DNA of 64,000 nt from Acidimicrobiaceae bacterium (GTDB taxonomy: Bacteria > Actinomycetota > Acidimicrobiia > Acidimicrobiales > RAAP-2), in contig PKYK01000034.1 of the NCBI GenBank assembly GCA_003133665.1, positions 1 through 64,000 of the forward strand, written 5' to 3'. The translations under genes were made by a program, and so were the position numbers. The notes under the pieces are model-generated. The model had not been told where the DNA came from and ran no database searches. It saw nothing but the letters and a program-made list of their open reading frames with translations. Each line of letters starts with the position of its first letter. Position 1 is the stretch's first letter. Below, in pieces: positions 33,444-51,911 of this stretch.

Positions 33444-33519
33444 GGGGGTATAGCTCAGCTGGTAGAGCGCTTGACTGGCAGTCAAGAGGTCAGGGGTTCG
33501 AATCCCCTTACCTCCACCA
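33444..33519 (+). tRNA. tRNA-Ala (GGC)
   Basis: Complete cloverleaf with encoded CCA. The acceptor stem contains a G3-T70 wobble pair, the alanine identity element. The anticodon loop CTGGCAG gives GGC, and the T-arm is AGGGGTTCGAATCCCCT. The 3' 46 nt of this gene are part of the 47-bp repeat that is duplicated at 43909, so the gene is the chromosomal attachment site of the adjacent element. The whole tRNA is kept at the left end. Confidence 0.96.
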
Positions 33520-33520
33520 A
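33474..33520 (+). repeat. Left attachment site (attL)
   Basis: 47-bp direct repeat identical to 43909-43955. It runs from the tRNA-Ala anticodon loop to one base past CCA. The bases next to it differ from those at the right copy, so the identity ends sharply on both sides. Confidence 0.93.
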
Positions 33521-33542
33521 AGTTGGACCTAATTAGAGGCAT

Positions 33543-33572
33543 CGGGGAACGAAACGGGAACGGAATTCCCCG
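33543..33572 (-). terminator. Inverted repeat after the integrase gene
   Basis: CGGGGAA (33543-33549) pairs with TTCCCCG (33566-33572) across a 16-nt loop. It lies just beyond the integrase stop, so it could end that transcript or be an arm-type integrase site near attL. There is no T run. Confidence 0.3.
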
Positions 33573-33577
33573 CGCGG

Positions 33578-34717
33578 CTAGTTGAGCAGGCTCGCCGACA
33601 ACGCCGCGCCGGCCTCTTCGGCCATTCCCGGCATCGTGTGCGCGTAAATCGCCAGCGTGATCGTCGGGGACGCGTGACCGAGCATCTCTGACACGACCTT
33701 GACCGGGACGTTGGACGCCAGCATCAGAGACGCGGCCGTGTGCCTGCAGTCGTGCAATCGAATCCGTGGCAGTCCTGACGCCTTCACGGCGTCGTCGAAC
33801 CAACCCGAAACGCTGTCGGGGTGAGAGGGGCGCCCGAGCTCGTCGGCCACCAGGTAGCCGGTCTCTTCGTACGCTCCGCCGGCCGACAGCTTCTCACGGC
33901 CCTGGCGGGCCTTGTGAGCTCGCAGGATCGGCGACAGGGACTCATCCAGGGGTACGGCCCGACGACCGGCCGCCGTCTTGGGCACACCGTCAACAGCCTT
34001 GCCTGCCACTGTGACACGAGTTCGGTTGATTGTGATCGAACCGGTGTCGAGTCCCACGTCCTGCCACCGCAGTCCGCACAGCTCGCCGCGACGAAGGCCT
34101 CGAGTGAGCAACAGGGTCCACGCGAACGCCCTACGGTCGTCCTTGGTGAACTCGAGGAACTGGCGCGCCTCATCAGTTGTCCAGGCTCGCATGACCCGCG
34201 ACGCCCCGCGGGGACGCTTCACGCCCGACACCGGGTTACGCGCGAGCAGATCGTTCTCGACGCCCCAGGCGCACGCGGCCTTCAAGATTCCGATCGTCAA
34301 CTGGATTGACCTCGAGGAGAGACCGTCCCGGCCCGTCGACGTGGGAGTGGTCCGCAACGTGCGCACGAGTTCGTTGACTCGCTTCGCTGTCAACGACGAC
34401 ACCTTCACCGCGCCAATGTACGGGTTGATCCACGCTCTGACGACATTGCGGTATTGGTGTATTGTCGACGGCCGCAGATCTCTCGCCTCCATGGCCTCGA
34501 GCCAGTGCTCGACGAGCAGCTCGCTGACGGTGAGCGGCTTGTCTGCTCTCCACGACCCGTCCGCCATTCGTCCAAGGACGGTGTTCAGGTGTTCTCTCGC
34601 GTCCTTTTGCCTGCGAAAACCACCCTTGGAGAACTGACGCCGCTCCCCCGTTGCCGGATCGTCGATCGACCAGCGGGCGCACCACGCGCCACCTCGCTTG
34701 AATGTTGAACCCTTCAT
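33578..34717 (-). CDS. int: Tyrosine-type site-specific recombinase (integrase)
   Basis: 379 aa. An N-terminal arm-binding domain is followed by a core-binding domain (about residues 60-150; TVSELLVEHWLEAMEARDLRPSTIHQY). The catalytic domain has Arg in LLLTRGLRRGELCGLRW, HDCRH with the His and second Arg, LGHAS, and the nucleophile Tyr in AIYAHTMPGM. It should integrate and excise the element at tRNA-Ala. The start overlaps the stop of the upstream HTH gene by one base. Confidence 0.95.
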   Translation of the reverse strand: MKGSTFKRGGAWCARWSIDDPATGERRQFSKGGFRRQKDAREHLNTVLGRMADGSWRADKPLTVSELLVEHWLEAMEARDLRPSTIHQYRNVVRAWINPYIGAVKVSSLTAKRVNELVRTLRTTPTSTGRDGLSSRSIQLTIGILKAACAWGVENDLLARNPVSGVKRPRGASRVMRAWTTDEARQFLEFTKDDRRAFAWTLLLTRGLRRGELCGLRWQDVGLDTGSITINRTRVTVAGKAVDGVPKTAAGRRAVPLDESLSPILRAHKARQGREKLSAGGAYEETGYLVADELGRPSHPDSVSGWFDDAVKASGLPRIRLHDCRHTAASLMLASNVPVKVVSEMLGHASPTITLAIYAHTMPGMAEEAGAALSASLLN

Positions 34718-35280
34718 CAGCCCCCCGCTCTTCCTGGTCCTTCAGAAGCGCCAAGAAAGCCCTTCTCCCTCGCGAGCGACACCCAGCGTCCCGCCGTCGA
34801 TCTCGAAAGTCCTACCGCCGACTCAATGGACTTGGTTGGCGATTCGCCGAGAACAAGAGCCGTCCGGTATGCACGAGCGACCCATTCGAGTGCTTCGTCA
34901 GTAGGCCCGCTCGATCGAAGTTTCTCCGCCGTTGCTTTGGTGAGACGGCGATCGCTAAGACCGATGCTCGTTCCAGAGCTGTTGTCGATCGAAAGGCAAC
35001 TTTGCGCCGCGATGAATCGAATAAGACGCGCAACCGGGACACCTCGAATTGCCTCGCTGGTCACAGGTGCACCGCCGGCGCGCTGAGTGACCTTCAACGA
35101 TTCGCACACGAACCGTCCAGCGCTATTTCGAGTCGCCGGAAGTGCGACGATCTCGATCTCGACATCGAAACCGCTCACATCCTCGACGATCCATTTGGAC
35201 GGTGACATTGCGGCGATGCCCGGCGCAATCTTCACTGGCAGCGACGCACCAAGGACTTCGACGGTTCGAAACTTGGTCAT
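34717..35280 (-). CDS. Element protein with C-terminal helix-turn-helix
   Basis: 187 aa. The last 40 residues read SPTKSIESAVGLSRSTAGRWVSLAREKGFL, a clear DNA-binding helix-turn-helix also seen in small proteins of actinobacterial prophages and integrative elements. The N-terminal 110 residues are beta-rich and not recognised. I prefer the ATG at 35280 because AGGA lies six bases before it; another ATG is 15 bases upstream. It is transcribed with the integrase and faces the excisionase genes, the position of a repressor (inference). Confidence 0.75.
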   Translation of the reverse strand: MTKFRTVEVLGASLPVKIAPGIAAMSPSKWIVEDVSGFDVEIEIVALPATRNSAGRFVCESLKVTQRAGGAPVTSEAIRGVPVARLIRFIAAQSCLSIDNSSGTSIGLSDRRLTKATAEKLRSSGPTDEALEWVARAYRTALVLGESPTKSIESAVGLSRSTAGRWVSLAREKGFLGASEGPGRAGG

Positions 35281-35330
35281 CAAGCATCCTGTCATGAATC
35301 GGTTTTCTCTGTCAAGACTATGCTATGGTA

Positions 35331-35346
35331 TGGTTCAGCAGAACCA
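35331..35346. promoter_or_regulatory. Palindrome in the divergent control region
   Basis: TGGTTC-AGCA-GAACCA is a perfect 6-bp inverted repeat located 50 bp ahead of the minus-strand HTH gene and about 25 bp ahead of the first excisionase-like gene. TATGCT/TATGGT just to its left could be a -10. It looks like an operator that switches between the two transcripts. Confidence 0.5.
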
Positions 35347-35371
35347 ACCGACTAAGAGCAAAGGAATCCTG

Positions 35372-35551
35372 GTGACACTCATTGCAAGCGAAAAGTGGCT
35401 CACACCAATTGAGCTCTCCGAGATGCTTCAGATTCCCCTCGACACGCTCTATCAGTGGCGAAACCGTAAATTCGGGCCGCGCGCCTACAAGATTGGCCGG
35501 CACCTTCGATACCGAGAGAGCCAGGTGATCGCATGGGCGGAGTCTCAGTGA
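35372..35551 (+). CDS. Excisionase-like helix-turn-helix protein 1
   Basis: 59 aa. KWLTPIELSEMLQIPLDTLYQWRNRKFGPRAYKIGRHLRYRESQVIAW is the MerR/excisionase-type winged helix (HTH_17), usual for Xis-like directionality factors. The GTG start has AAAGGA at good spacing; an upstream extension through the operator is unlikely. The next HTH gene overlaps the stop. Confidence 0.85.
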   Translation: MTLIASEKWLTPIELSEMLQIPLDTLYQWRNRKFGPRAYKIGRHLRYRESQVIAWAESQ

Positions 35552-35727
35552 CCTGCCGGACCTACACGGTCGCTGAAGTCAGCGAACTCTCGGGCCTGTC
35601 AAGTTGGAGCGTTTACGCCCACCTAAAAGATAAATCGTTCCCCGTCGCGCCAATTCGCGTCGGGGCGCGGATCCTCTTTTCAAGAGTCTTGATCGACGCG
35701 GCCTTCCCAATTGAACGCGTGTCATGA
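35548..35727 (+). CDS. Excisionase-like helix-turn-helix protein 2
   Basis: 59 aa from GTG at 35548, or 64 aa from ATG at 35533. TCRTYTVAEVSELSGLSSWSVYAHLKDKSFPVAPIRVGARILFSRVLIDAAF is a second HTH_17-type domain. The GTG forms a GTGA overlap with the first HTH gene. Two consecutive Xis-like proteins may act together or one may regulate the early operon. Confidence 0.8.
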   Translation: MTCRTYTVAEVSELSGLSSWSVYAHLKDKSFPVAPIRVGARILFSRVLIDAAFPIERVS

Positions 35728-36014
35728 TCACGCCGCTCACGATCGAAGAAGCGCGCGCCACGCTCAAGAGCACGCCCGTGCCCGACCAGTTCGCTCACTC
35801 ATGGGCGAGCGAGGCCCATCGCGCCAGGGCCGCAGCGGCCTACCTGATTTCCGAATTCGGATTTAGCGCCGAGCAGATCGTCGACGCGATGACGGCGGCG
35901 GCGGTTGAAACTTGCCCGCGTCTGACGAACCCTCGCGCGTCGGTCGAGGCTGGAATCGCAGATGGCCTCGAGCGATGCCTGCACGCAGAGTCGATTGTCA
36001 AGGGGGTCTCATGA
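35724..36014 (+). CDS. Hypothetical element protein
   Basis: 96 aa, alpha-helical, no recognised domain. The start overlaps the upstream stop (ATGA) and the stop overlaps the next start (ATGA), so it is part of the early operon. It has no signal peptide or membrane segment. It lies between the Xis-like genes and the replication-like gene, so a DNA-metabolism accessory role is possible (inference). Confidence 0.7.
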   Translation: MITPLTIEEARATLKSTPVPDQFAHSWASEAHRARAAAAYLISEFGFSAEQIVDAMTAAAVETCPRLTNPRASVEAGIADGLERCLHAESIVKGVS

Positions 36015-36871
36015 GTGTTCACGTGATGGTCGCCATCTTCGACGCTACCGGGTTAACTTCGACAGAGAAACTCGTCGCGCTGGCGTACGCAGAACACGGC
36101 CATGATGACGGGACTGAGGCGCGCGCCGGAATCGCCCGAATTTGCCAGTACACGGCGTTGACAAGGCGCACTGTCCAAACAACACTCCGCTCGCTCGTCA
36201 AGAAGGGGGTGCTGGAAGTTGAAAAGCCAGCGACGAATAAGTGGCCCACTGTCTACCGGTTTCTGCTCTCGCCGGATAGGAAGTCACTGGCGATTAGTGG
36301 GGGCGCAATCACTGCGCCTCAAGAATCTGGAGGTGCAACTGACGACGCTGGAGGTGCAACTGACGACGCTGGAGGCGCAACTGACGACATCTTGGGGCGC
36401 GAGAGCTTCGCCCAAACCGTTAAAGAACCGTCATATGAACCGTCAGTAAGAACCGTGTCCAACGTCGACGTGTCGACGACGCTCATCGAAGCCGAAAAGC
36501 TCTGCTCGATCCTCCAGGGCCATGTCATCGCCAATGGCTTCAAACCATTCACCGAGGGGAAGTCATCACTCGGTGCGATGGAGCGCCTTCTTCGCATTGA
36601 TGATCGAACGTTCGCTCAGGTGAAATACATCATCGAGTGGTGTCAGAAGGATGAATTCTGGCTCGTCAACATTCGCTCGCCCCAGAAGCTCCGGGACAAG
36701 TTCGACACACTGCTCGGTCAGGCCCTCAAGGGCAAGCGCGGTGTGATCAAGTTTCTGGACAACGACTTCGAAGCGTCACCACTATGGGACGGTCCAATCG
36801 AAGATTTGAAGCCGCTTAGTGATGACGAAAAGATGGCGGCAGTTCATGCGACCTTTGCGAGCGCCTCCTGA
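36011..36871 (+). CDS. Helix-turn-helix replication-initiator-like protein
   Basis: 286 aa. Residues 1-100 hold a winged helix of the phage replisome-organiser type (LTSTEKLVALAYAEHG, ARICQYTALTRRTVQTTLRSLVKKGVLEV). Then comes a Gly/Asp-rich linker with three copies of GGATDDA encoded by a 21-bp tandem repeat. The C-terminal half (about 160-270) has IIEWCQKDEFWLVNIRSPQKLRDKF, as in O/DnaD-like replication proteins. Probably recruits host helicase to an origin in the element. ATGA overlap with the upstream gene. Confidence 0.72.
   Translation: MSVHVMVAIFDATGLTSTEKLVALAYAEHGHDDGTEARAGIARICQYTALTRRTVQTTLRSLVKKGVLEVEKPATNKWPTVYRFLLSPDRKSLAISGGAITAPQESGGATDDAGGATDDAGGATDDILGRESFAQTVKEPSYEPSVRTVSNVDVSTTLIEAEKLCSILQGHVIANGFKPFTEGKSSLGAMERLLRIDDRTFAQVKYIIEWCQKDEFWLVNIRSPQKLRDKFDTLLGQALKGKRGVIKFLDNDFEASPLWDGPIEDLKPLSDDEKMAAVHATFASAS
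36327..36389 (+). repeat. Three tandem copies of a 21-bp unit in the replication-like gene
   Basis: Copies at 36327-36347, 36348-36368 and 36369-36389. The third differs by GGTG to GGCG and at its final base. In frame they encode GGATDD-containing repeats. Initiator genes of some lambdoid phages carry their origin iterons inside the coding sequence, so these could be origin iterons as well as linker codons (inference). Confidence 0.85.
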
Positions 36872-37049
36872 TGAAGCGAGGTCTCTTCGTGAGCAAGTCA
36901 AGTGTCAATAGTTCTCGAGGCGGCGTCAGCGCGTTCCTCGCGTTGTCGTCCTGCGCCCTGTCATCGCGGCGGTCGTTAAACGGCGTACTGAGCGCCGAAG
37001 GTCGACCGACGCCGCCTCGATTCACTACAACAACGAAAGAGGCACTGAC
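36872..37049. other. Non-coding interval with a long perfect inverted repeat
   Basis: A 13-bp arm at 36915-36927 (TCGAGGCGGCGTC) is perfectly complementary to 37008-37020, separated by 80 nt. The 178-bp interval directly follows the replication-like gene and precedes a GTG-started gene. A 60-codon frame passes through it (36871-37053) but reads as Ser/Arg-rich filler. It could be a replication origin, a structured RNA or a long hairpin terminator. Confidence 0.55.
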
Positions 37050-37538
37050 GTGAGTTCAGAGGACAAGTACACCTACGCGAACGTTCGCTCGAGGATCGCC
37101 GAGAAGATGAGAGAGAACGCGCGCATGGTTCTAAGCCAAGGCGTCGACGAGCAAGGAATGCCTCGGAACGTGGGACAGGCCCCAAACGTCACCGCATTGG
37201 CCGACGGGACGACGCTCGAGCAGCCGACGATGGCCGAAGCACTATTTGCAGCGACTTCAACTCTCGGGGTCAATCTCGAGGGATTGATGGACAGTCGGAA
37301 GTTCGTCGAGCAGCTCGTGGCGATCGATGAATCTGACACCGCCTCAGTGTCGACCTTGGTCAGTGAAACTCTGGCGGCAAATCCTCACCTGGCGATTGCG
37401 GTGCCACGGATGAAGCCCAACCGAGCCCAGGGATCGTCGGCGATTCCAGTTCCAGCGAAGCCCAAGACAATGAAGGAACAGCTGAGCGACATGCTGAATC
37501 GGTCGTCGCCCGTCGACCGCGCTTCACGAATTATCTAG
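37050..37538 (+). CDS. Hypothetical element protein
   Basis: 162 aa, GTG start. Soluble, mostly helical; the C-terminal part (about 115-160) is Pro-rich and basic, NPHLAIAVPRMKPNRAQGSSAIP then a short helix TMKEQLSDMLNR. Such an N-terminal helical body with a Gly/Gln/Ser tail is seen in small phage head-assembly or unknown structural proteins, but the resemblance is weak. No function assigned. Confidence 0.65.
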   Translation: MSSEDKYTYANVRSRIAEKMRENARMVLSQGVDEQGMPRNVGQAPNVTALADGTTLEQPTMAEALFAATSTLGVNLEGLMDSRKFVEQLVAIDESDTASVSTLVSETLAANPHLAIAVPRMKPNRAQGSSAIPVPAKPKTMKEQLSDMLNRSSPVDRASRII

Positions 37539-37568
37539 TCCAACATCAATTCACAGAAAAGGAAATTT

Positions 37569-38126
37569 ATGGACAACAGCAACCAAACGCAAGACACGAC
37601 TCTAAGTCGCGATATCGGCGAGCTCATCGACGGCGGAGTCGCACGGCGCGAAGCAGAGCGAGCCGCATTGCGTCCGCACGTAGAACCGGTCATTGAGCCA
37701 GGTCCGACACCAGAGGAACTCGCCGCCCGAGACCTGAAGGAACGCCGTGAGGCGGCTGGCGTTGAGGCGTACAAGGCGACTATCAGCACCGCGTGCGAGA
37801 AGTTGAGCGAGGACTACAGCAAGACGGATGAGGCATTCAAGGTCTGCGCCGCCGATCCCGGTTCGACCCTCGACGAGCTGTTTGCGGGGTGGTCGGCGCT
37901 GCGAGATGCCCGAGCGTCGTACGCGCAGGCCTGCGAGCTGCGCAACGCCACCAACCCGAATGACCACCCAATCGGCGCCGGAACTCCAATCCCCCTGCTT
38001 TTTAGCGAGGTTGAAGAACAGGTTCTATCGTTCCGCGCCAAGAACGTCGCCAACGCCACGGTGAACGCGGCAGCGCAGACCGCCGAGGACGCGCGCGCCG
38101 ATGCGGCGAGAAAGATCACGAAGTAG
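37569..38126 (+). CDS. Hypothetical coiled-coil element protein
   Basis: 185 aa. ATG preceded by AAAAGGAAA. Charged N-terminal helices (SRDIGELIDGGVARREAERAALR), a middle helical region and an alanine-rich C-terminal helix (FRAKNVANATVNAAAQTAEDARADAARKITK) with coiled-coil character. It begins 30 nt after the previous gene. A scaffold-like role would fit the composition but cannot be shown. Confidence 0.65.
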   Translation: MDNSNQTQDTTLSRDIGELIDGGVARREAERAALRPHVEPVIEPGPTPEELAARDLKERREAAGVEAYKATISTACEKLSEDYSKTDEAFKVCAADPGSTLDELFAGWSALRDARASYAQACELRNATNPNDHPIGAGTPIPLLFSEVEEQVLSFRAKNVANATVNAAAQTAEDARADAARKITK

Positions 38127-38162
38127 TCGCGATTGCCTCGTCGACAACTTCCGGGACCACTC

Positions 38163-38276
38163 ATGAAGACTCGTTACTACCTCACCAAGTGCGCCCTCTG
38201 CAACCACCGCGAACGGCTCCGCAACAACGGCTACCTCTGGGCCTACATCTGCAGCGACTGTCGAGACGACCAATGA
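38163..38276 (+). CDS. 37-residue zinc-ribbon protein
   Basis: MKTRYYLTKCALCNHRERLR followed by a short linker and ICSDCRDDQ. The four cysteines (C10, C13, C30, C33) form a classic CxxC-N16-CxxC zinc ribbon. The stop overlaps the start of the next gene (ATGA). Small proteins of this kind are common in actinophage genomes; function unknown. Confidence 0.7.
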   Translation: MKTRYYLTKCALCNHRERLRNNGYLWAYICSDCRDDQ

Positions 38277-38572
38277 GCAGCACCACCACCGTCATAATCG
38301 GCAGCAACGGCGACGGCAAGGTTCTAGCGGACGCGCCGAACCAGTCACCCAGTCAATGGGGGGAGGGAGCGGCTCAGGTCGTTCGCCCTCGCGCAGCGGG
38401 GCGCCGTGGTGCCGGCGTGTCACACCCCACAACTACGTTCGCCAATACGCGATCGAAGCAGAGTCGAGGCCTCGATATCTCCCCCACCCCCATCGAAACT
38501 TCTCGCGTACGGTATTGCGAACGACAAGCGCGCATATCTGAAACGCTCCTTAGGGGGCGGGGCTACGAATGA
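38273..38572 (+). CDS. Hypothetical element protein
   Basis: 99 aa. Starts MSSTTTVIIGSNGDGK and continues with a low-complexity, basic, probably disordered sequence. Coupled by ATGA overlaps to the zinc-ribbon gene before it and the small terminase gene after it. That coupling is the main support for its being real; no family recognised. Confidence 0.5.
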   Translation: MSSTTTVIIGSNGDGKVLADAPNQSPSQWGEGAAQVVRPRAAGRRGAGVSHPTTTFANTRSKQSRGLDISPTPIETSRVRYCERQARISETLLRGRGYE

Positions 38573-38961
38573 CCCTCAAAACGGCCAGGGCGCCCCGTAA
38601 ATCGCCGCGAACGGTCGCTGCACCGGTCGGACTTTCAACCAGCGGAAAGCGTCTATGGAAGTCAATTTCCTCGGTGTTCGGGCTCGAAGAGTATGAAAAG
38701 GTCGTGCTTTTGCAGGCGTGCCGTTGCGCAGATCGGCTCGACTTCATGGCCAAGGAGCTCGTGGCGTCGACGTTGACCGTCACGAATCACAAGGGCGACG
38801 AAGTCGCTCATCCTCTCATCGCCGAGAGCCGACAACAGAGTCTGACGCTGGCTCGACTTCTCGCTTCTCTGCGCGTGCCGAGTGGCGAGACGGTTGGCGA
38901 CCACCGACTACAGCGACGCGGCGCGGTTCGCGGCACCTACGGCGGCGGAGCATCATCGTGA
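38569..38961 (+). CDS. Phage terminase small subunit (P27-like)
   Basis: 130 aa. The helical core GKRLWKSISSVFGLEEYEKVVLLQACRCADRLDFMAKEL followed by HPLIAESRQQSLTLARLLASLRVP and a final QRRGAVRGTYG is the pattern of actinophage small terminase proteins. Small terminase recognises the packaging site and passes DNA to the large subunit. No large terminase gene follows; the next genes are an unknown and a glycosyltransferase-like gene, so packaging would need a helper's large subunit. Confidence 0.78.
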   Translation: MTLKTARAPRKSPRTVAAPVGLSTSGKRLWKSISSVFGLEEYEKVVLLQACRCADRLDFMAKELVASTLTVTNHKGDEVAHPLIAESRQQSLTLARLLASLRVPSGETVGDHRLQRRGAVRGTYGGGASS

Positions 38962-39260
38962 GACGCCTGACACCGACAGCGAGCACCGTGCCGGCTGATC
39001 TAAAGACGTACGCCTGGCGTCGATGGGAAAGCGAAGCAATCGCCGCACGGGCTGAAAGCGACAGGTCCGGCCCCTCTCCCTGTGCATTCGTGGCCAACAT
39101 TCACGCGCCCGTGCGCTATCGCGCAGCACTCACTGAAGCCGTTGGCCAGGTCGCAGGCGACCGTCATTTCTACGCTCAGATGGAGACGCCAAGAGTCCGA
39201 AAGCACCAACTTGACGCCATCGCATCTGGCGTCGCGTCAACTCCCGAGATCGGCGTCTAA
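38958..39260 (+). CDS. Hypothetical element protein
   Basis: 100 aa, GTG start in a GTGA overlap with the terminase stop. Basic N-terminus, soluble, with AWRRWESEAIAARAESDRSGPSPCAFVANIHAPVRYRAAL in the middle. No recognised domain. Its stop shares a base with the next start (TAATG). Confidence 0.6.
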   Translation: MRRLTPTASTVPADLKTYAWRRWESEAIAARAESDRSGPSPCAFVANIHAPVRYRAALTEAVGQVAGDRHFYAQMETPRVRKHQLDAIASGVASTPEIGV

Positions 39261-39877
39261 TGTCGGAGACACGGGGCTTGCCCGTCCACGTTGCGCCTCC
39301 ACTTCTCTCGCGGACAAGCCCGGCACTCGCACGAATCGTCGTGCCGTTCACCAGTGTCCACCGTGACACTCGCGCCGCCCTCGAGCCCTACGGGCCGCGA
39401 GTGAAGTACTGCGACGTGAGTGAAGTCGGCGCGTACTGGCGTCTCTTCAGCGATCTTTGGGCCGCTGGCGAAGATTTCATTCTGATCGAGCATGACATCG
39501 TTGTTCGACCTGGCACCATTGACGGCTTCGATCGATGTCCTTCGTCGTGGTGCTCGTGCTCGTACACCTGGAATTGGAAGCCGGCGTACTCCTGGCTCGC
39601 CGACCGAAGCGCCAAGGTGCTTGAGAACTCGCTCGGCTGCACGCGCTTCCGGGCCGAGTTTCTCAAGGCTTCACCGGACCTTGGAACTGACGCCGTGCTC
39701 GAAAGGTTCGCTCGGCAGTCGAAGCTTGGATCCTTGGTGGAAGCGCGCCGGCGATTTACACCGAGACTTGCGCCGCCGATCCCCCACTACCTCGTCGATC
39801 AGCTCTTCCTGGCGGTCGTCGCTGATGGCGGCACCGTGTCGTTTTGCGCCCACGAGCGGGTAGGTCACCGCCAATGA
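39260..39877 (+). CDS. Glycosyltransferase-like protein of the element
   Basis: 205 aa. It has a compact GT-A-like layout: ARIVVPFTSVHRDTRAALEPY, then FILIEHDIVVRPGTIDGFDRCP where EHD takes the place of a metal-binding DxD, then an unusual Trp/Cys-rich segment SSWCSCSYTWNWK, and LGCTRFRAEFL. Similar small proteins occur in actinobacteria and their phages. A role in modifying a virion, host surface or DNA is possible. Assignment is tentative. Confidence 0.45.
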   Translation: MSETRGLPVHVAPPLLSRTSPALARIVVPFTSVHRDTRAALEPYGPRVKYCDVSEVGAYWRLFSDLWAAGEDFILIEHDIVVRPGTIDGFDRCPSSWCSCSYTWNWKPAYSWLADRSAKVLENSLGCTRFRAEFLKASPDLGTDAVLERFARQSKLGSLVEARRRFTPRLAPPIPHYLVDQLFLAVVADGGTVSFCAHERVGHRQ

Positions 39878-39910
39878 TTTCGTCCGAATCCAACAAGAAA
39901 AGAGTCAATC

Positions 39911-42715
39911 ATGTCGTATGAAGTGGGCTCGGCGTTCCTTCAAATCTTGCCGTCCTTCTCAGGCGTCGTCGAAGCGATCAGCGCGGAAGCTGAGAAGTGG
40001 GGCGACACGGCCGCCCAGGTCTTCGCCGAGACGTTCAAGGGGATCGTCAACGGCGAACTGAAGAACCTCTCGCCGGTCAAGGTCACTGCCGACATCTCCG
40101 AAGCCGAGGCGAAACTCGCGGAGATCCGAGCGTCGCTCGATGGTCTTGGCAACGAGAGAATCGGCGTCACCCTCAGTGAAGCCGACGCTCTCGCAAAGAT
40201 CGAAACCCTGCGAGTTGACCTCGACGAACTGGCGCTGAAAAGTCCGAACATTCGCGTTGACATTGACGCCGCCCGAGCCGAAGTGGAGCTCGCCGCGCTC
40301 AGTCTCGAGGCCGGAACTCTCGGGTCGGGTCTGAACGACGTTGAAGGAGCCGCCGGTGGCGCCGGCGCCGGCGTCAGCGGCCTCGGAGCCGACGCAGAGT
40401 CCTCGATGCCCGAAGTGTCGGGTCTCGTCGCCGGGGTTGTCGCATTGGGCGTCGCCCTGGTGCCTATAGGGGGGCTCGCTTTGGGTGCACTGGCCGCTCT
40501 CCCCGCTTTGATCGCCGGGGCCACGGCGGGCCTCGGAGGCCTCGTTCTAGGGTTCTCAGGAATCTTTGGCACTCTTTCAGCCTTCAACAAGTCCCAAACG
40601 ACCGGTGGAAGCGCTGGCAGTTCAGGGGCGTCGTCGGCACTGAGCAACGCCGACGCTGAACGAAACGCCGCCAACAGCGTCCAGACCGCCGAGGAGGCGC
40701 TCACCAATTCTCGCGTCAACGGTGCACGCTCAGTGGCCGCAGCGCAAGCAGCAGCGGCTCAGGCGACCGTCTCAGCCAACCAGGCCGTCATCACCGCGGA
40801 GAACAACCTGGTCAACGCCGAACGCGCCGTGACGCAGGCGCAGTGGAACGAGCAACAGGCGCAAGAAGCCGTCATCACCGCCCGCCAGAACGCTCAGAAC
40901 CAGCTCGAGAACTACACCAACCAGCTCGCCGACGGCGCGATCGCCCAACAGCAGGCCGCGCTCAACCTCGTCGAAGCCAAGCAGGCCCTCGACGCCGCCA
41001 ACGCCCCTGGATCCACCGCGACGGACAACCAGAAGACCCAGGCGCAGATCTCCTTCGAGCAGGCCACTCAGGCGGTCACCGATCTCAATACCCAGCAGTC
41101 CCAGCTCGCGGTCACGGCAACCGCGGCCGCGGCTGCCGGCGTCGACGGGAACAACCAGGTCCTCGCCGCCGAGCACAACCTCCAGCAGGCGACCCAGGCC
41201 GTCACTGATGCCGTCACTGCCCAGGGGACCGCTCAGCAGAACGTCGCCGACGCCACCGCGGCCGCGGCCGCGCAACAGATCACGAACCAGGACAACATCG
41301 CCCAGGCGCAGAAGAAGAGCGCGCAGACCGTCGCCGACGCCGAACGCGCTTTGACCATGGCCCTCGACAACCAGAAGTCTGCCTTCGAGCGAGCGGCGAT
41401 CCCCGTCTCGAGCGGATCGTCGGCGATCAACACCTACGCCAATGACCTCAAGAAGCTCACGCCGGCCGGCCGGGAGTTCGTCGAGTTCGTCACCGGCACC
41501 ATGTACCCGGTCTTCGAGGGCCTCAAGGCCCAGGTGCAAGACGCCTTCCTGCCGAAGATTCAGGGTGGGCTGATGGATCTCCTCCCCTTCTTCCGCGACC
41601 TGGGCCCGATCATCGTGCAAGCGGCCTCGGGCATCGGCCAGACGTTCGAAGAACTCGCCAAGTTCATCGGATCCAAGACCGGACTCTCCGAGGTCATGAC
41701 GATTTTCAAAGAGGGCAACGGCTTCATGGCCGCGATGGGCGGCAACTTCGTCACCCTGTTCGAGGCCTTCACCGGCGTCGGCGCTCAAGCGGGCCCGATC
41801 GTCACCGCGCTCTCGGACGGCATCACGCACCTGGTGGACTCGTTCGCCAAGTGGGCAGAGGACGGCGGCTTTCAGAAGTTCCTCGTCTGGTTGAAAGAGA
41901 ATGGTCCGAGCATCGTCTCGGATATCGGAGATCTCCTCAAGTCAGCAGGTGGACTCGTTGTCGCACTCACGCCGATCGGATTGGTACTCGACAAGGTGAT
42001 CGGGGGACTTTCCCAGTTTGTAGGTTGGCTCGTCAAGAGCGACCCGATCCTCTTGACGGTCACGGCGCAGCTCGGCGCCCTGGCGCTCGCGGTGCTGGCC
42101 GTCTCGTCGCCCGTCGTGCTGATAACGGCCGGCATCGCTCTTCTCGTCATTGGCGTCACGGAGCTCGTCGTACATTGGCGCGCCGTCTGGGGCGACATCA
42201 AGAATTGGGCGCTCGACGCCTGGCGCTTCCTCGACGGGCAGGTCTTCAGTCCGATCGTCAACTTCTTCACGGCACTCCCCGATGAGATTGCGAAAGGTCT
42301 CGTCGGCCTGGCTGACACTATCGCGAGGCCGTTCGAAGATGCTCTGGGTCCGATTAAGGCTGTCATCGACACCATCAAGGGATGGATCGGTGGTCTCAGC
42401 ACTGCAATAGGTCTCACCACTGTGAAACTCGACGCAACACAGGCGGGTTCGATTCTGGGTGTGACGATACCGAAGCACCATGACGGCGGCGTTGTCCAGG
42501 GCACGCCCGGCGTCGAGACGTTGGCGTGGCTGATGCCTGGTGAGATCGTGACGCCGGCAGGGATGAAACTTCCCTCCCACTCTGATGCGCGCGTCATCAC
42601 CTTCGCACCGGTCTTCAATGGCGTCGACCTGTCCAACGTGAACATGGTTCAAAGGGAGATCACTTCAGCTTTTGCACAGTTCGCCGAAGAAATTCAACCA
42701 ATGAAGATCTTTTGA
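39911..42715 (+). CDS. Phage tail tape-measure protein
   Basis: 934 aa. The N-terminus SAFLQILPSFSGVVEAISAEAEKW is typical of actinophage tape-measure proteins. A Gly/Ala hydrophobic segment (about 165-225) is followed by a long Ala/Gln-rich coiled coil (about 250-495), the domain LTPAGREFVEFVTGTMYPVF, further hydrophobic helices (about 690-760), and a C-terminal GGVVQGTPGVETLAWLMPGEIVTPAG. Family proteins set siphophage tail length. Start ATG with AAAAGAG before it. No tail-tube, chaperone or baseplate genes are beside it, which is unusual. Confidence 0.88.
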   Translation: MSYEVGSAFLQILPSFSGVVEAISAEAEKWGDTAAQVFAETFKGIVNGELKNLSPVKVTADISEAEAKLAEIRASLDGLGNERIGVTLSEADALAKIETLRVDLDELALKSPNIRVDIDAARAEVELAALSLEAGTLGSGLNDVEGAAGGAGAGVSGLGADAESSMPEVSGLVAGVVALGVALVPIGGLALGALAALPALIAGATAGLGGLVLGFSGIFGTLSAFNKSQTTGGSAGSSGASSALSNADAERNAANSVQTAEEALTNSRVNGARSVAAAQAAAAQATVSANQAVITAENNLVNAERAVTQAQWNEQQAQEAVITARQNAQNQLENYTNQLADGAIAQQQAALNLVEAKQALDAANAPGSTATDNQKTQAQISFEQATQAVTDLNTQQSQLAVTATAAAAAGVDGNNQVLAAEHNLQQATQAVTDAVTAQGTAQQNVADATAAAAAQQITNQDNIAQAQKKSAQTVADAERALTMALDNQKSAFERAAIPVSSGSSAINTYANDLKKLTPAGREFVEFVTGTMYPVFEGLKAQVQDAFLPKIQGGLMDLLPFFRDLGPIIVQAASGIGQTFEELAKFIGSKTGLSEVMTIFKEGNGFMAAMGGNFVTLFEAFTGVGAQAGPIVTALSDGITHLVDSFAKWAEDGGFQKFLVWLKENGPSIVSDIGDLLKSAGGLVVALTPIGLVLDKVIGGLSQFVGWLVKSDPILLTVTAQLGALALAVLAVSSPVVLITAGIALLVIGVTELVVHWRAVWGDIKNWALDAWRFLDGQVFSPIVNFFTALPDEIAKGLVGLADTIARPFEDALGPIKAVIDTIKGWIGGLSTAIGLTTVKLDATQAGSILGVTIPKHHDGGVVQGTPGVETLAWLMPGEIVTPAGMKLPSHSDARVITFAPVFNGVDLSNVNMVQREITSAFAQFAEEIQPMKIF

Positions 42716-42981
42716 CGACCGCGTCGAACTCGTCAACCGCCCTGGCGCCACGCACGGGGTTCGTCAACCCCTACTCGCACGGCGGGGTCCGTCGGATGAG
42801 TAACGCTTCGAACTTGTCAGCCAACGGGGCATTCTTCAACTCCTGCCACAACGGGCCCGCGATGGTCTCAGAGAGCTGGCTTGAGGAGATGGTGACGAAG
42901 GCGATGCTCAGGGTGCTGATGAATACGCCCTTGGCACAACTCGAAGCGATCCTCGAGCGGCGCCGGCGTGAGGACTTCTAG
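42712..42981 (+). CDS. Small protein after the tape-measure gene
   Basis: 89 aa from TTG at 42712, which overlaps the tape-measure stop; ATG at 42796 would give 61 aa. The second half NLSANGAFFNSCHNGPAMVSESWLEEMVTKAMLRVLMNTPLAQLEAILERRRREDF is helical and charged. Position behind the tape measure suggests a virion-related or late protein; no family recognised. Its stop overlaps that of the convergent small gene. Confidence 0.6.
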   Translation: MTTASNSSTALAPRTGFVNPYSHGGVRRMSNASNLSANGAFFNSCHNGPAMVSESWLEEMVTKAMLRVLMNTPLAQLEAILERRRREDF

Positions 42982-43202
42982 ACCTCCTGCGTGTACGCCT
43001 TCAGCATGGCTTCGAAGTGCTCGTCGCTCATGTCACGCTCGAGGAGCTCGCCTGGCGGAAAGGGTCCGTCCAGAAGATATCGCTCAACGAGTTCCATGAG
43101 CAGAGTTCCGGCAACGGGGCTCTCGCGCAGAGTTGCGAACGCTTCATCACTCAGCGAGTGCAAGTAGACCACGGCTTGCTCGTTGACCTTGGTTTTTGAC
43201 AT
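42978..43202 (-). CDS. Small hypothetical protein, convergent
   Basis: 74 aa, MSKTKVNEQAVVYLHSLSDE at the start, acidic and helical, with no membrane segment. The ATG has GGGGG about five bases before it. It is read towards the late operon, the only minus-strand gene besides the integrase unit, and ends in a 4-nt stop overlap. Could be a separately controlled gene such as a fitness or immunity factor; no evidence beyond position. Confidence 0.55.
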   Translation of the reverse strand: MSKTKVNEQAVVYLHSLSDEAFATLRESPVAGTLLMELVERYLLDGPFPPGELLERDMSDEHFEAMLKAYTQEV

Positions 43203-43908
43203 CGAACCCCCTTCGATTTGAGAGAACGCCTTTTGACGGTCTCACTTTGAATCTTCGGCGAGAGTACCTGAAGAGCGCCGTCGATCGGGGATCCGCACCC
43301 TGTCCGCAGGGGCAGAAACAATGCGAAAAGGTGAGGGCAGATGAAGAGTGAAGTTCTAGATCAACGTTGGTTTTGCTCACGTGATAAACGGCACGCATCA
43401 TTTCTTGATGAACCTGTCGGCGAAGCGAATTCGCCGAAGAGCAGCGCCCTAACGCCAAGCAATCACCAGGTTTTCGAGTTTCTGTAAATTTCTTTGCTTA
43501 CGATTTAAAACCCGCTGTCCGCGAGATGTCTGAAGGAGGCGAGACCGGCGGACCCATGGTTCGTCCATGGGAATGCTCTGGCGACTCGTCGCGCCACGAT
43601 CGCTTCGAAGGGCACGTAGGGCCGCTCATCCGGTCAGACTGCTCACACCACGCCCTGTGCGCCGCGTGAGGGCCACGGCGTGGTCACTTCGCCACCCAGC
43701 ACGTCGCGCAGAGACGAAGGTGCGGAGTCGGCTCTACAGCAAACGCAAGAGCTGGTAGCAGTCGCAACGCTCGGGGAACGGTTTGTGAACACAACTCGCG
43801 CCAAGCGTCCTCTTGAGAGCCAACAGCACCACACGACGAGCGGAGCATTAGCCCTCGTGACCTGCCTAAACATAATCAGAGCAAATCAGCGCAAACAACC
43901 TTTGAGGA
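43203..43908. other. Right end of the element, no convincing gene
   Basis: 706 bp of lower GC than the flanks. I see two clear hairpins: TCGGCGAA/TTCGCCGA at 43417-43437 (8-bp stem, 5-nt loop) and CCCATGG/CCATGGG at 43553-43571 (7-bp stem, 5-nt loop). Short open frames (43567-43758, 43680-43988) run into or near attR and read as non-protein. The first hairpin may be a terminator. Integrase or Xis sites, or a packaging site, could lie here. Confidence 0.5.
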
Positions 43909-43955
43909 ACTGGCAGTCAAGAGGTCAGGGGTTCGAATCCCCTTACCTCCACCAA
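43909..43955 (+). repeat. Right attachment site (attR)
   Basis: Perfect 47-bp copy of the tRNA-Ala 3' part at 33474-33520. It has the anticodon loop, variable and T-arm and CCA, but no 5' acceptor strand or D-arm, so it is not a tRNA gene. The following 43956-44226 is chromosomal DNA without a recognisable gene. Confidence 0.93.
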
Positions 43956-44226
43956 GGGAACTCAGTGAGATTAGGTTCAACCACCTAGCGGAATCACAGC
44001 CGGGGTTCCGACCGGCCTCAAATCTGATGCCGCGGCGCCCGCTCGCATCATCAACAGTTCATTGGAGCAGTACCGATGCCACCAGCCGAGCCGACTTCAT
44101 CATGTCCATTGTGGAGGCGAAGAGGCTGCGCCTGCGTAGCCCACGCCCTGAACCGGCCGGGGTCGCCGTCACCTCGATCGCCAAACGTCAACAGCGCTGC
44201 CGCAGACCCGCGGTACCGACGACCTG

Positions 44227-45650: not shown

Positions 45651-46162
45651 CCCGCCGACTCAGCCAGGTAGTTGACGCCAACGGCCACCCGTATTCAAGG
45701 ACTCGCACGTCTCTTGGCATGACCCGGGTGTGTAGACGTGCCACGCTCGAATCAGGTCTTGCCCCTGCGCAACGTCTGCCGCCCGAGAGACACTCGATAC
45801 AGCGATGGGGGTACCCGGATGGCACCCGCCCGTGGCTCGGCGAGCGTGGGCTCCGGCACCGGGCGACTTGCCGTGCCTCCGGCGAGTCGAGTCACCAATG
45901 CAATCCGGGCTCTGGCGACTTCGTATTCGCCTCGAGCGAGACCGACGACGCACCTTCGGCGAACTCGGGACCCGATGGGCCGCGGTGTTCGGTGCGGTTC
46001 ACATCAGGGGCCCGACGACCTGGGCCTGCAGTCAAGCCTTGGCAACCCATTGCGTGAGCCGGTCTGGTGACGAAGGACCATTCTCGACAACCCCCGATGG
46101 CGAAACTCATTTTGGGAGCATCCGTCGTCCCTCCCAGGAGTTTCCGCCGTCACCTCCCTAGG
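45651..46162. other. Intergenic stretch without a convincing gene
   Basis: 512 bp. Several overlapping short frames exist on both strands (for example 45805-46161 on plus and 45660-45953 on minus), but their translations are Arg/Pro/Ser-rich and no start has a good ribosome site. I see no tRNA, riboswitch or repeat. Confidence 0.5.
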
Positions 46163-47704
46163 TCAGGCAACTCTCGAAGGATCCGAGCCCCGATCGACGA
46201 CCTGAGGAGCATTCCCCGCGAACACGTTAAGGCAGGCCTCAACGACGACGGGGTCGTACAACGTCCCCGCACCTCGCTTCACCTCGGCGAGGGCCATTTC
46301 GATGCCCAGTCCAGGTCGGTAGGGGCGATGTTGCGTCATAGCCTCAACCACGTCGGCCACCGCAATGATCCGCGCGGGCAGGATTATTTCGTGTCCGAGA
46401 ATCCCACCGGGGTAGCCCGAGCCGTCCATCCGTTCGTGGTGTTGCAGGGCAACTTCCGCGATTGGCCAAGGCAGCGACGCCTTGGTCAAGATATCGGCGC
46501 CGACGACGGTGTGGCGCTTGACCATCTCAAACTCGAGAGCGCTGAGTCGGCCAGGGCGAGTGAGGATCTCAGCGGGCACGGCGATCTTGCCAATGTCATG
46601 CACCTCCCCGCTTTGTCGAACCAGCTCAACCATCGTGGCGTCGAGGCCAAGTTGAGTGGCGATGGCTGCGCCGAGGGCGGCCACGTGGACTTGGTGGCCT
46701 GCCGTGTAGGGGTCGCGGGTCTCGGTCATCTGGCCGAGGGCGGCGAGAGTCCCGTCGAGTGCTTCCGCCAACCGGCTTGTTGACTGTATGTGGGCGATGC
46801 CGAACTCGACCTCTTTCGCAATCACTTCGAGTCCCTCCACCGCCGTCTCGTCGAATGAGAAGACGTGCTCGTCGTAGACGGCGAGCACCGCCCTATGCCC
46901 ACCGGGGGCGATGGGAATGGCGATACACGAGCCGAGTCCGAATTCGCGGGCCCGTTCCCGCCACGGCTCGAACAGAGAGTTGGTGGCCATATCGTTGACC
47001 ACCTGGGTGGTGCCGGTTCGCAGCGCCGTTCCGACTGGGCCCAGCCCGGCCTCCTTCGACCCCGACCAGGAGACCATGCCCGCGTAGGGGTAGTCGGTGA
47101 CTCCAGATGAGAAGGCGATGTCGATGCCACCTTCCTCGACGGGGGAAGGAGTTCCGATCCATGCGAGTGCGTAGGGGCCGTACTCGACGAGGGAATCACA
47201 CAGACGTTGCAGGGGTTCGGTGTCGTCGGTGGCGAACATCACGATTCGGTTGACTTCGGTGAGCAACTGCAGTGAGCGCCGGTGCTTCATTTGAGTTGTG
47301 ATGTCATCGAACCAGACGACGGCCCCCTTGATCTCGTTGTCAACTATGAGCGGATAACCATCTACCCATAGCCATCGGCGCGACTTACCAGGATTATCGA
47401 TTCCCGTGATCACGCCGTAGCAGGGCTCGCCCGTTCGCAACACGCGTGATGAAACGTACTCGCCGTCGGCAAGTCTTGAGCCATCCTCGTGCACGGCGCC
47501 CAGAGGCAAATCGAAAATGGTCTTGCCTTCGATCTGGTCGGTTGTGGCGCCGAGCAGTCTGGAAGCGGCACTGTTGCAGTCGATGACTACACCTTCGACG
47601 TCATAGAGCACGACACCGGTACGAATGTTGTCAAGGAATTCATTGGAGTAGACCCGCGCGTAGAGACCTGCGTTGGGGTCAGCCAGTGAATTGATTACGT
47701 TCAT
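46163..47704 (-). CDS. PAS-GAF-HD-GYP protein, likely cyclic-di-GMP phosphodiesterase
   Basis: 513 aa from the ATG at 47704, which has GGTGAGG before it; the open frame continues upstream without a good start. PAS domain about residues 22-135 (IRTGVVLYDVEGVVIDCNSAASRLLGAT), GAF about 148-305, HD-GYP about 325-495 with EVHDIGKI (H369, D370), a later HTVVGADIL, and HHERMDGSGYPGG. The catalytic residues of HD-GYP enzymes are intact, so it should hydrolyse c-di-GMP in response to signals sensed by PAS/GAF. No membrane anchor. Flanked on both sides by long non-coding stretches. Confidence 0.88.
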   Translation of the reverse strand: MNVINSLADPNAGLYARVYSNEFLDNIRTGVVLYDVEGVVIDCNSAASRLLGATTDQIEGKTIFDLPLGAVHEDGSRLADGEYVSSRVLRTGEPCYGVITGIDNPGKSRRWLWVDGYPLIVDNEIKGAVVWFDDITTQMKHRRSLQLLTEVNRIVMFATDDTEPLQRLCDSLVEYGPYALAWIGTPSPVEEGGIDIAFSSGVTDYPYAGMVSWSGSKEAGLGPVGTALRTGTTQVVNDMATNSLFEPWRERAREFGLGSCIAIPIAPGGHRAVLAVYDEHVFSFDETAVEGLEVIAKEVEFGIAHIQSTSRLAEALDGTLAALGQMTETRDPYTAGHQVHVAALGAAIATQLGLDATMVELVRQSGEVHDIGKIAVPAEILTRPGRLSALEFEMVKRHTVVGADILTKASLPWPIAEVALQHHERMDGSGYPGGILGHEIILPARIIAVADVVEAMTQHRPYRPGLGIEMALAEVKRGAGTLYDPVVVEACLNVFAGNAPQVVDRGSDPSRVA

Positions 47705-48544
47705 GTTCAGCCTCACCTTGGTAGGTCCGACAATCCGGCCAATTGAACGATCCAGAGGGCTGATCAGTGACTCCGCCACCAATAATCGTGACGGCTTAAC
47801 CAGCCAAAGGGATAGTTCCATTCAGTAACTGAAGGGCTTTCTACAGATTAGTAGTGAATTTAGGAATTCAAGGGCGCGAATCCAGTTTCATAACACCAGT
47901 CAACTGAGAAGTTGTTCTCTGGTTGTTTCATTGTTGAGCAAGAGTTGAGAGACGTGTTGCTCTTCTCATCGGGTAGACGGCAAAGAGCGAATGTCAAGTT
48001 GGCAATCGATGCGCGATCAACAGACATTTCCGGGACTGATTCACGCGGGTCTGGCGTTCACTGATTCTCTTCTGTGGTCCCTCCCTTTGGACCCGAAACG
48101 CCTCACCGTGAATCCCGCGATGCTGAGCGATGGCAACTCCTTCAGACGATTCTTCGGCCAGGCAGTTTGTCAGCCCCGAAGTCAAATCATGGAGAACTCG
48201 CGAGAACGCCGATATGCGGCGTACTTCGTTGTGCGGGCAAATCGGAGCCCCCGGCGACCCCCAAGATTGGGGTGCGACCTACGCAGTTAGTTGCTCACAT
48301 GCGCAGGTGTTGTCCATGTCGCTCGGAACGCCGAGAGACCCTGCGAGCCCCTGAACCAACTCGTGCGATGGAGTCATCCAATGGGTTCGCGCTAGCCACG
48401 AGATCTTCCCAGACATCACCCAATCAGCTTCCACGTCTGGCAGGCCATCGTCAATCTGACGTTGCAGCGAGGTCGCGGACGCTGGAGTCAGCTTCGCGCT
48501 GCGAATCCCCATCCATCGACTACCTCCCACGACAGACTTCGCCT
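47705..48544. other. Long intergenic stretch, possibly decayed coding DNA
   Basis: 840 bp ahead of the HD-GYP gene and the small membrane protein gene. Lower GC near 47830-48000 (promoter side of the HD-GYP gene). Frames such as 47991-48290 on plus and 48279-48530 on minus are open, but have no good start context and no recognisable family. No RNA gene seen. Confidence 0.45.
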
Positions 48545-48838
48545 ATGCAGCGCCGTCAGTTGAACCTGCCTCAGCGCGTCGTTCTGGTTGTTGGACTCGG
48601 GGCCGCGCTCTACTTCTTTGGTGGCTGGGCGACGACGTGGGGATCCGGCGCCAGTTGGAACGGTTACGCCCCTCTCCAGAGCAGCGCCTCCTTCAGCCCC
48701 TTCATCGCCGGGCTTTTTCCATGGGTGCGCCTTTGCGTGTGGTTCATACTCGTTGCGGTATGGGTCGGAGTCTCACTGGTAGTCCTTCGCTCACCCGCCG
48801 CAACCGACGTCGGTGACCGGAGTTCGCCGCAAGCGTGA
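48545..48838 (+). CDS. Small two-helix membrane protein
   Basis: 97 aa. Hydrophobic segments at about residues 11-30 (RVVLVVGLGAALYFFGGW) and 60-82 (WVRLCVWFILVAVWVGVSLVV) with a Ser/Gly-rich loop between them. The ATG of MQRRQLNLPQ is chosen because the hydrophobic part starts just after it and the upstream frame looks non-coding. No family recognised; downstream is a 229-bp gap. Confidence 0.6.
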   Translation: MQRRQLNLPQRVVLVVGLGAALYFFGGWATTWGSGASWNGYAPLQSSASFSPFIAGLFPWVRLCVWFILVAVWVGVSLVVLRSPAATDVGDRSSPQA

Positions 48839-49067
48839 CCGTTTGATATCAAAGGTGTCACGTCGATCCCTTCGTCGAATTCGCCCGCAGCACCGCCACT
48901 GATAAGGGACACTCGATTCGCCCTGCGGACTCGACGAATGGGACCGAATTCGAAGATTAACAACACGTGAACTTCGAGGTCACGTGGCATGTCTCCCCTT
49001 GGAAGTTCACGCCGCTCGGGTAAGGTCGATGGCAGAGGTCGAGTCATTCGAAGAGAAGAGACACTGC

Positions 49068-50964: not shown

Positions 50965-50996
50965 TGGCCTAACGTACTTCGGCGCGGGTCGAGCGA

Positions 50997-51764: not shown

Positions 51765-51911
51765 GTGCTCATCCTACGGATGCTCGCCGCACGTGCCAAA
51801 GAATGGGAAAACGAAGAGATTCACCGATTCCGCAAGACATCGCTCACCATGAATCTCCATGAGCAGATCGCGCGGTAGACCTGAGTGCACTGATCTACGA
51901 AAGGCAGAGCA

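Follow-up and report, generated by a model that had tools for sequence, protein, structure and literature searches.

A candidate phage satellite at tRNA-Ala in an Acidimicrobiaceae bacterium, with small terminase, scaffold-domain and tape measure genes

What kind of element carries a terminase small subunit (TerS) and a tail tape measure protein (TMP) but no recognised gene for a capsid, a portal or a terminase large subunit (TerL)? The question is raised by a compact element integrated at a tRNA-Ala gene in a 64,000-nucleotide stretch of DNA from an Acidimicrobiaceae bacterium (contig PKYK01000034.1, positions 1 to 64,000; hereafter the window). An earlier note on this DNA, made from its letters, had proposed a candidate phage satellite. 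Consistent with that proposal, we found related elements at other tRNA genes, none of them with a recognised portal or capsid gene, and the gene order of a phage with a similar TMP (viral contig L051) differs from theirs. Overall, and with good backing from comparative genomics, we consider it likely that the element is an integrated phage satellite resembling the Staphylococcus aureus pathogenicity islands (SaPIs), which would redirect packaging through its TerS, probably redirect capsid size and build chimeric tails.

Ends, virion genes and relatives of the element

The perfect attachment (att) repeats, the integrase, two Xis-like proteins, an initiator-like protein, TerS and the TMP named in the earlier note were all recovered by our searches (Table 2), and the first repeat lies within an intact tRNA-Ala(ggc). 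The earlier gene list was incomplete, having missed the scaffold-domain protein and the structured RNA described below, and its statement that nearly every gene joint overlaps was too strong, as 10 of 15 joints do so by 1–4 nt. The main frames of the element are intact.

When the 17 window frames were scanned against PHROGs, no portal, major capsid, TerL, tail-tube or lysis match was obtained, and the gene set of a siphoprophage (portal, capsid, major tail, lysis) was not found in the element. A six-frame search of ten loci of the element family (defined below) with portal and capsid profiles gave a portal in 0/10 and a credible capsid in 0/10, confirming what the note had said of the window; one capsid match (L015; 12.4 bits, E 0.007) was treated as chance. 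These profiles were built from six phages and cover one capsid and portal type, other types being covered by PHROGs for the 17 window frames. In phage loci the same profiles detected the portal in 10/10, the capsid in 9/10 and the scaffold in 10/10, six of the ten having trained the profiles; the four non-training loci (L044, L045, L046 and L048) gave 4/4, 3/4 and 4/4, respectively.

To define the family, 172 genomes were surveyed at family level. TerS searches matched 8/172 genomes at nine places, window included, and TMP searches matched 4/172 genomes and added one locus (G064:C14), giving ten loci in nine genomes; two of the relatives, G093 and G099, are of the same genus. In all four genomes with a TMP match, the TMP sits in an element without a recognised portal or capsid. 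Seven of the ten loci are bounded by att repeats on both sides and together occupy six different tRNA genes (Table 1); the other three (G086 and two G013 contigs) are short contigs without both ends. Because integrases and intact att ends recur at several tRNA genes in the family, the elements appear to be mobile. The G093 element encodes a TerL of 431 aa as called, the G037 element carries a primase-like gene, and the G064 TerS matches Pfam Terminase_7 (3e-37). The G064 repeat lies in the 5' part of its tRNA gene, unlike those of the other elements. The G064 locus (C14, 6349-23421) also holds a second integrase-like gene (10264-11121) and may be a composite of two elements. Two order-wide TMP matches, G310 (portal) and G344 (portal, TerL, capsid), were set aside as full phages or prophages, and scans of viral contigs with single window proteins (TMP, TerS, the 205-aa protein) found nothing.

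Table 1. Family elements bounded by both att ends
Element	tRNA gene	att repeat	Length	Genes found	Not found
Window	tRNA-Ala	47 bp	10,482 bp	scaffold, TerS, TMP	
G099 (contig C10)	tRNA-Val(cac)	33 bp, one mismatch	9,833 bp	scaffold, TerS, TMP	
G078	tRNA-Leu	63 bp	9,172 bp	scaffold, RecT-like (PHROGs), TerS, TerL	TMP
G097	tRNA-Leu	68 bp	9,598 bp	scaffold, RecT-like (by similarity), TerS, TerL	TMP
G093 (contig C103)	tRNA-Val(tac)	about 44 bp, two N	14,454 bp	RecT-like, TerS, TerL, TMP	scaffold
G037	tRNA-Gly	51 bp	10,045 bp	TerS	scaffold, TerL, TMP
G064:C14	tRNA-Ile	43 bp, tRNA 5' part	17,073 bp	TerS, 1,206-aa TMP-like protein	scaffold

The earlier note had named a full prophage at the same site as an observation that would speak against a satellite. 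No copy with a head-tail block was found in the tRNA-Ala neighbourhood of five relatives, each covered over short stretches. There, G099 has a different integrase, G093 has an integrase and no intact tRNA-Ala called, G078 has an excisionase-like gene with larger genes that looks like another element, G097 has no integrase called within ~10 kb after the tRNA, and the G088 contig ends within tRNA-Ala. Because different integrases or elements occur in three relatives and none was called in G097, this neighbourhood (L105, L107, L108, L109) is probably an integration hotspot. Within its own genome, the best other match of the tRNA-Ala/att region is 78% over 95 bp. The segment directly after attR (43956-44050) resembles L090 8403-8497, which follows tRNA-Pro in G078, and rearrangement at tRNA genes is possible on this similarity. 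The GC content is ~66–68% in the last 5 kb left of the element and 59–65% in the first 4 kb to its right.

Packaging, scaffold and tail genes and their phage relatives

A complete siphophage with a similar TMP, which the earlier note had suggested looking for, was found in L051, a 38.2-kb viral contig with TerL, portal, protease, scaffold, capsid and major tail protein by PHROGs. Its TMP (979 aa) aligns over its full length with the satellite TMPs, and the window TMP is equally close to it (55% identical) and to the G099 satellite TMP (55%). The TMP was found in 4/10 loci, in one of which (G064) the 1,206-aa protein resembles TMPs in its N-terminal part alone (31% over 166 aa, E 2e-17), with a small gene directly before it. 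In the pieces of the L051 record examined (L059, L060), ParA/ParB-like genes were recognised by eye and gene calling gave no integrase, and L051 may be a phage-plasmid or virulent. A gene before TerL in L051 was considered as TerS through a similarity chain via the G064 TerS; its PHROGs family is 'minor tail protein' (phrog_226), so that it is at most a tentative TerS.

Could the element be a decayed or internally deleted siphoprophage, that is, a full phage at tRNA-Ala that lost its head and most tail genes? All three putative hijack genes descend from phage genes, and the L051 TMP is no more distant from the window's than that of a sister element. However, these genes are found again in other genomes, in elements at other tRNA genes that likewise lack a recognised portal or capsid. 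Further, the order in L051 is TerL, portal, protease, scaffold, capsid and, later, TMP, whereas in the satellites the scaffold gene is followed by the 185-aa gene, then by TerS and finally by TMP; a single deletion from such a prophage therefore cannot give the element. In addition, the ratio of nonsynonymous to synonymous substitution (dN/dS) of the TMP is low (window–G093 0.265, window–G099 0.267, window–L051 0.35), although these values are rough, with synonymous sites near saturation. Together with the intact main frames, the low ratio argues for use rather than decay, and we regard the decayed prophage as highly improbable. Residues 229–500 of the TMP (window 40595-41410, the coil region) are 94.5% identical between the window and G093 (L019), compared with 55% before and 75% just after, and dS is 0.55 within this part and 1.18 and 0.99 in its flanks. 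Because this part is near-identical with lower dS, the comparison suggests exchange by recombination between satellites.

The scaffold-domain protein gave its best PHROGs match at 4e-7, to a family without assigned function, and matched a scaffold family at only 0.09. Tblastn found eight Streptomyces phage records at E 0.01–0.07, six of them annotated 'scaffolding protein', and in phages Vondra and Mojorita the relative sits immediately before the major capsid gene. Profile–profile alignment of six satellite copies (one incomplete) with six environmental siphophage scaffolds covered 82 columns (hhalign, Table 2); the likeness falls in the C-terminal half and the N-terminal parts differ. In L051, the scaffold was recognised through phrog_15003 ('head scaffolding protein', 3.6e-15). 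As called, the satellite proteins have 153–162 aa (incomplete copy left out) compared with 195–226 aa in the phages, although the G078 and G097 genes may begin further upstream than called. By six-frame search the scaffold profile matched 6/10 family loci, the sixth weakly (17.8 bits); outside this count, a 42-aa fragment was matched by tblastn in G086 (E 2e-4). The AlphaFold model (pLDDT 62) was too weak for a structure search. The satellite protein is similar to the SaPI proteins CpmB and Rcm, for which competition with the helper scaffold has been proposed (PMC12409344), and it probably redirects capsid size. From these likenesses, L051 would represent the type of phage from which the satellite TMP and scaffold come; as a helper it is at most putative.

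TerS was matched by tblastn in 140 phage records (best E 8e-12), and 14 of the 15 listed are annotated as small terminase. A chromosomal anti-phage island could also hold these genes, with scaffold domain, TerS and TMP acting as dominant-negative decoys and with little or no transfer in particles; satellites commonly block their helpers via virion-assembly proteins (PMC12987554, PMC12409344). We consider this improbable, since the recurrent integrases and intact att ends point to mobility and a full-length, conserved TMP exceeds what a poison needs. PADLOC gave no match among eight window proteins, a result that says nothing of decoys.

Several observations count against the satellite as we propose it. 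Among the att-bounded elements the scaffold was not found in 3/7 (G093, G037, G064) and the TMP was not found in 3/7 (G078, G097, G037), so that of the hijack genes TerS alone is universal in the family, and the G064 TMP was not confirmed by PHROGs. The right flank of the element is non-syntenic in G097 and G078, the two relatives where it was found. An L051-type capsid is not in the window's own assembly (2.49 Mb, 80 contigs, 85.8% complete; probably a metagenome-assembled genome), and it occurs, as a distant match, in 1/172 family genomes (G093:C47, E 8e-8). The L051 record gave no match to the satellite-type TerS, relatives of which lie in L040-L043; L051 itself therefore need not be the helper. 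Finally, at 934 aa compared with 979 aa in L051, the window TMP does not indicate a strong change of tail length. Because it is barely shorter, replacement of the ruler seems likelier than a large length change. The G093:C47 contig (41 kb; L055, L056) has large structural-looking phage genes, and its genome also carries a satellite; as a phage contig with a distant capsid, it was set aside as a helper.

The near-phage length of the TMP fits a further explanation, in which the TMP is carried for another property (DNA ejection, host entry or helper exclusion) and the scaffold-domain protein leaves capsid size unchanged. The C-terminal part of the TMP is the least alike between the window and the other satellites (36–43% amino acid identity; G099 versus G093, 57%), and in Vibrio cholerae phage-inducible chromosomal island-like elements (PLEs), where a satellite TMP was reported as new in 2026, the benefit of tail replacement is still open (PMC12987554). 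We judge this explanation rather unlikely; it is compatible with a satellite, and the shortened scaffold is like known size switchers, which act in competition with the scaffolds of their helpers (PMC12409344).

Replication and the structured block before the late module

The initiator gene of the window, which has no primase match in PHROGs, contains tandem repeats in its middle whose score no codon shuffle reached (Table 2); when five further genes of the window were treated in this way, between 4 and 38 of 50 shuffles did so. G078 and G093 likewise have mid-gene repeats in their initiator genes (phrog_3926), as does G064 in its rep-like gene (0/100 shuffles each). The G099 initiator gene has no such repeats (33/100 shuffles reach the score), and neither do the replication genes of G037 and G097, which are of other types. 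Iterons within the initiator gene are the arrangement of phage lambda, and the window repeats may be lambda-like iterons.

Between the replication and late modules, blastn among the elements revealed a conserved block. Single-base indels in its alignment show that what is conserved is not a reading frame. Folding z-scores were −4.68 (window), −5.45 (G099), −4.87 (G078), −2.75 (G097), −4.58 (G093) and −1.92 (G037). A covariance model (R1) built from the window, G099, G078 and G097 gave seven matches in the 172 genomes, namely the four training elements, the held-out G093 (E 5e-11) and G037 (E 9e-5), and G002, which was dropped because it falls inside a called coding gene. Across the six elements, 15 of 32 pairs are changed on both sides (shuffles: mean 6.0, 0/500 as high), 93.6% of cells are paired and sliding the partner gives at most five double-change pairs, in an alignment fitted to the structure. 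RNAalifold on a MAFFT alignment of the six gave 30 pairs, of which 11 are changed on both sides; its outer stem and next helix are those of the model, but the first hairpin is absent and the inner arm has other partners, so that the inner part of the fold is uncertain. Among 36 sources searched with the model, the four remaining element loci had no match, and no phage locus matched at an E below 0.7. Rfam had no match (tRNA ends aside), a search of 50,697 phage records yielded nothing beyond 37-bp matches at E 0.5 in two of them, and no description of the R1 RNA appeared among the matches listed from the literature on satellite RNAs. A viral pattern match (L110) lay in coding sequence with no partner stem seen and was rejected.

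Most likely, the ~107-nt block is a leader of the late module or a small RNA that serves it; the next gene starts 21–93 nt downstream. The block lies 12–42 nt after the preceding gene in 5/6 elements, and in phage-inducible chromosomal islands (PICIs) the origin follows rep (PMC6092414), a position that would also suit a DNA structure such as a replication origin or packaging site; moreover, in G093 the other strand folds too (−5.50 compared with −4.58 on the + strand). However, paired cells on the + strand include 15 G-T and 4 A-C, which favours RNA (in the alignment fitted to the model), and of the three elements folded on both strands, the window and G037 fold more strongly on +. The block, which is 67% GC, is also kept in G097, whose replication gene is unrelated, and candidate iterons already lie inside rep. 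We therefore hold a DNA site to be a real possibility but the less favoured one.

The remaining features of the element are collected in Table 2. Integrase and regulator genes point leftward and the xis, rep, scaffold, TerS and TMP genes rightward, with the 74-aa gene facing back. The DUF6214-like gene is divergent from the right-arm genes, and weakly similar genes adjoin int in L018, L019 and L020; it may encode a repressor. The 185-aa protein has no homologue among phage records at E 0.1, and the 37-aa protein, judged by eye, may bind zinc. For the 205-aa protein, searches of Pfam, PHROGs, PADLOC, NCBIfam, phage records and viral contigs were all negative, and its AlphaFold model (pLDDT 38) was too weak for a structure search; a by-eye reading as a sugar transferase is not claimed. 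As a tail chaperone, the 74-aa protein aligns weakly, the G093 gene before TMP matches phrog_2624 (7e-4), and none was found by PHROGs in the G099 element. Outside the att ends, ~2 kb right of the element, positions 46000-52000 (57–62% GC) are a possible second island.

Table 2. Features of the window element
Feature	Position	Strand	Evidence and remarks
Integrated element	33474-43955		10,482 bp, 61.0% GC
tRNA-Ala(ggc), integration target, intact	33444..33519	+	ARAGORN
attL, 47 bp = 3' part of tRNA-Ala	33474..33520	+	perfect direct repeat
attR, 47 bp, 100% identical to attL	43909..43955	+	perfect direct repeat
Tyrosine integrase, 379 aa	33578..34717	-	Pfam PF00589, E 1.9e-22; 65% identical to G093 element integrase (blast)
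DUF6214-like helix-turn-helix (HTH) protein, putative regulator	34717..35280 (alternative longer start 35295)	-	PF19720 1.7e-5, 25.4 bits, just below the 26.6 cut-off
HTH_17 / excisionase type protein A	35330..35551	+	PF12728 1.9e-12
HTH_17 type protein B	35548..35727 (alternative longer start 35533)	+	PF12728 2.8e-5, below cut-off; homologue in L019
96-aa protein	35724..36014	+	open frame, 4-nt overlaps; homologue in L017
O-like / DnaD-like replication initiator	36011..36871	+	phrog_391 2.8e-21, phrog_2514 2.6e-16
Three 21-bp tandem repeats within initiator gene, candidate iterons/origin	36327..36388	+	0/100 codon shuffles reach score
Conserved structured RNA (model R1)	36914..37020 (model match 36914-37028)	+	folding, covariation
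Scaffold-domain protein, 162 aa	37050..37538	+	hhalign to phage scaffolds 99.5%, E 2e-22; hmmsearch 5e-17
Conserved satellite protein, 185 aa	37569..38126	+	homologues L016, L017, L018; short weak match L015
Short cysteine-pair protein, 37 aa	38163..38276	+	open frame
99-aa open frame	38273..38572	+	4-nt overlaps both sides; no family match
Terminase small subunit (TerS)	38569..38961	+	phrog_1496 4.6e-22; tblastn
100-aa protein	38958..39260	+	homologue sits between TerS and TMP in G099 element
205-aa orphan protein, candidate accessory gene	39260..39877	+	
Tail tape measure protein (TMP), 934 aa	39911..42715	+	phrog_4197 3.1e-34; relatives
89-aa protein, TTG start	42712..42981	+	60% identical to G099 element gene
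74-aa protein, possibly shortened tail assembly chaperone	42978..43202	-	weak alignment only; no PHROGs support

Proposed mechanism and relation to known satellites

In the mechanism that we propose, the element would lie silent in tRNA-Ala, held by the divergent regulator beside int, until infection by a helper siphophage or induction of a helper prophage, whereupon it would excise and replicate from an origin built into the initiator gene. The late module, its first gene preceded by the structured RNA with a presumed role in the switch, would then be turned on and would take over helper particles at up to three points: TerS would steer the helper TerL to satellite DNA, the short scaffold-domain protein would compete with the helper scaffold and probably yield small capsids for ~10 kb, and the satellite TMP would replace that of the helper to give chimeric tails.

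The element shows the general features of a satellite (an integrase between att repeats, ~7–20 kb, regulation and replication genes and no self-sufficient virion set). It shares the layout of Gram-positive PICIs and SaPIs, with int and regulator leftward and xis, rep, a capsid-morphogenesis gene and terS rightward (PMC6092414, PMC12409344). It differs from PICIs in that their primase-type replication module with an origin 3' of rep was not found and the candidate iterons lie inside the gene (PMC6092414); in addition, it carries a TMP, its relatives carry a chaperone, a RecT-like protein or TerL, and an RNA precedes the late module. A definition of satellites by size and modules excludes structural genes (PMC13376191), an exclusion that the window TMP breaks, as do the PLEs.

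The PLEs of V. cholerae (PLE1, PLE4 and PLE11) are likewise integrated and have their own TMP, and they use phage capsid proteins (PMC12987554), as the element described here would. PLE11 TMP replaces that of ICP1 to give chimeric tails ~10 nm shorter, and deletion of tmp cuts transduction by 96% in PLE1, 99% in PLE4 and ~99.9% in PLE11; putative tmp genes also occur in PLE-like elements and some capsid-forming PICIs (cf-PICIs) (PMC12987554). The Vibrio PLEs prove that chimeric tails are possible. PLEs also carry their own tail assembly chaperone (PMC12987554), for which the window candidate is a weak alignment, and remodel capsids through TcaP (PMC12409344). Compared by description, PLEs differ in having a contractile-tailed helper and, in some, a baseplate hub, whereas here TerS and a scaffold domain occur in an actinobacterial element.

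The Streptomyces Mulch and Flayer satellites share with the window an actinobacterial host, but they and the cf-PICIs encode portal and major capsid (PMC10690885), neither of which was found here; the window element also lacks the TerL of that gene set. Candidate Mycobacterium PICIs are likewise small phage-like actinobacterial islands, three with tyrosine integrases at tRNA genes, but they are defined by an integrase and a major capsid gene (PMC10654092), a definition that would miss the window family. Small actinobacterial prophage-like elements are expected to include satellites (PMC10023795), and no description of this family was found in the available parts of the open-licence satellite literature. 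The earlier note was aware of no established satellite class with exactly this gene set; a satellite TMP has a precedent in PLEs (PMC12987554), and the points that appear new are the combination of scaffold domain, TerS and TMP and the family-specific RNA.

We tentatively suggest, as a view that is open to considerable doubt, that these elements form a separate actinobacterial lineage, independent of PLEs and convergent with them, in which single elements reprogram packaging, head size and tail, with the late module gated by a helper-responsive or helper-tuning RNA. Searches keyed to capsid genes would miss such elements. The R1 RNA offers a new approach to the possible timing of the hijack by satellites, and the members with and without TMP, TerL and scaffold provide natural variation for testing tail takeover. 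A further family with a TMP, in Actinobacteria, alongside a full phage whose TMP and scaffold match, would point to tail takeover as a strategy of satellites in general.

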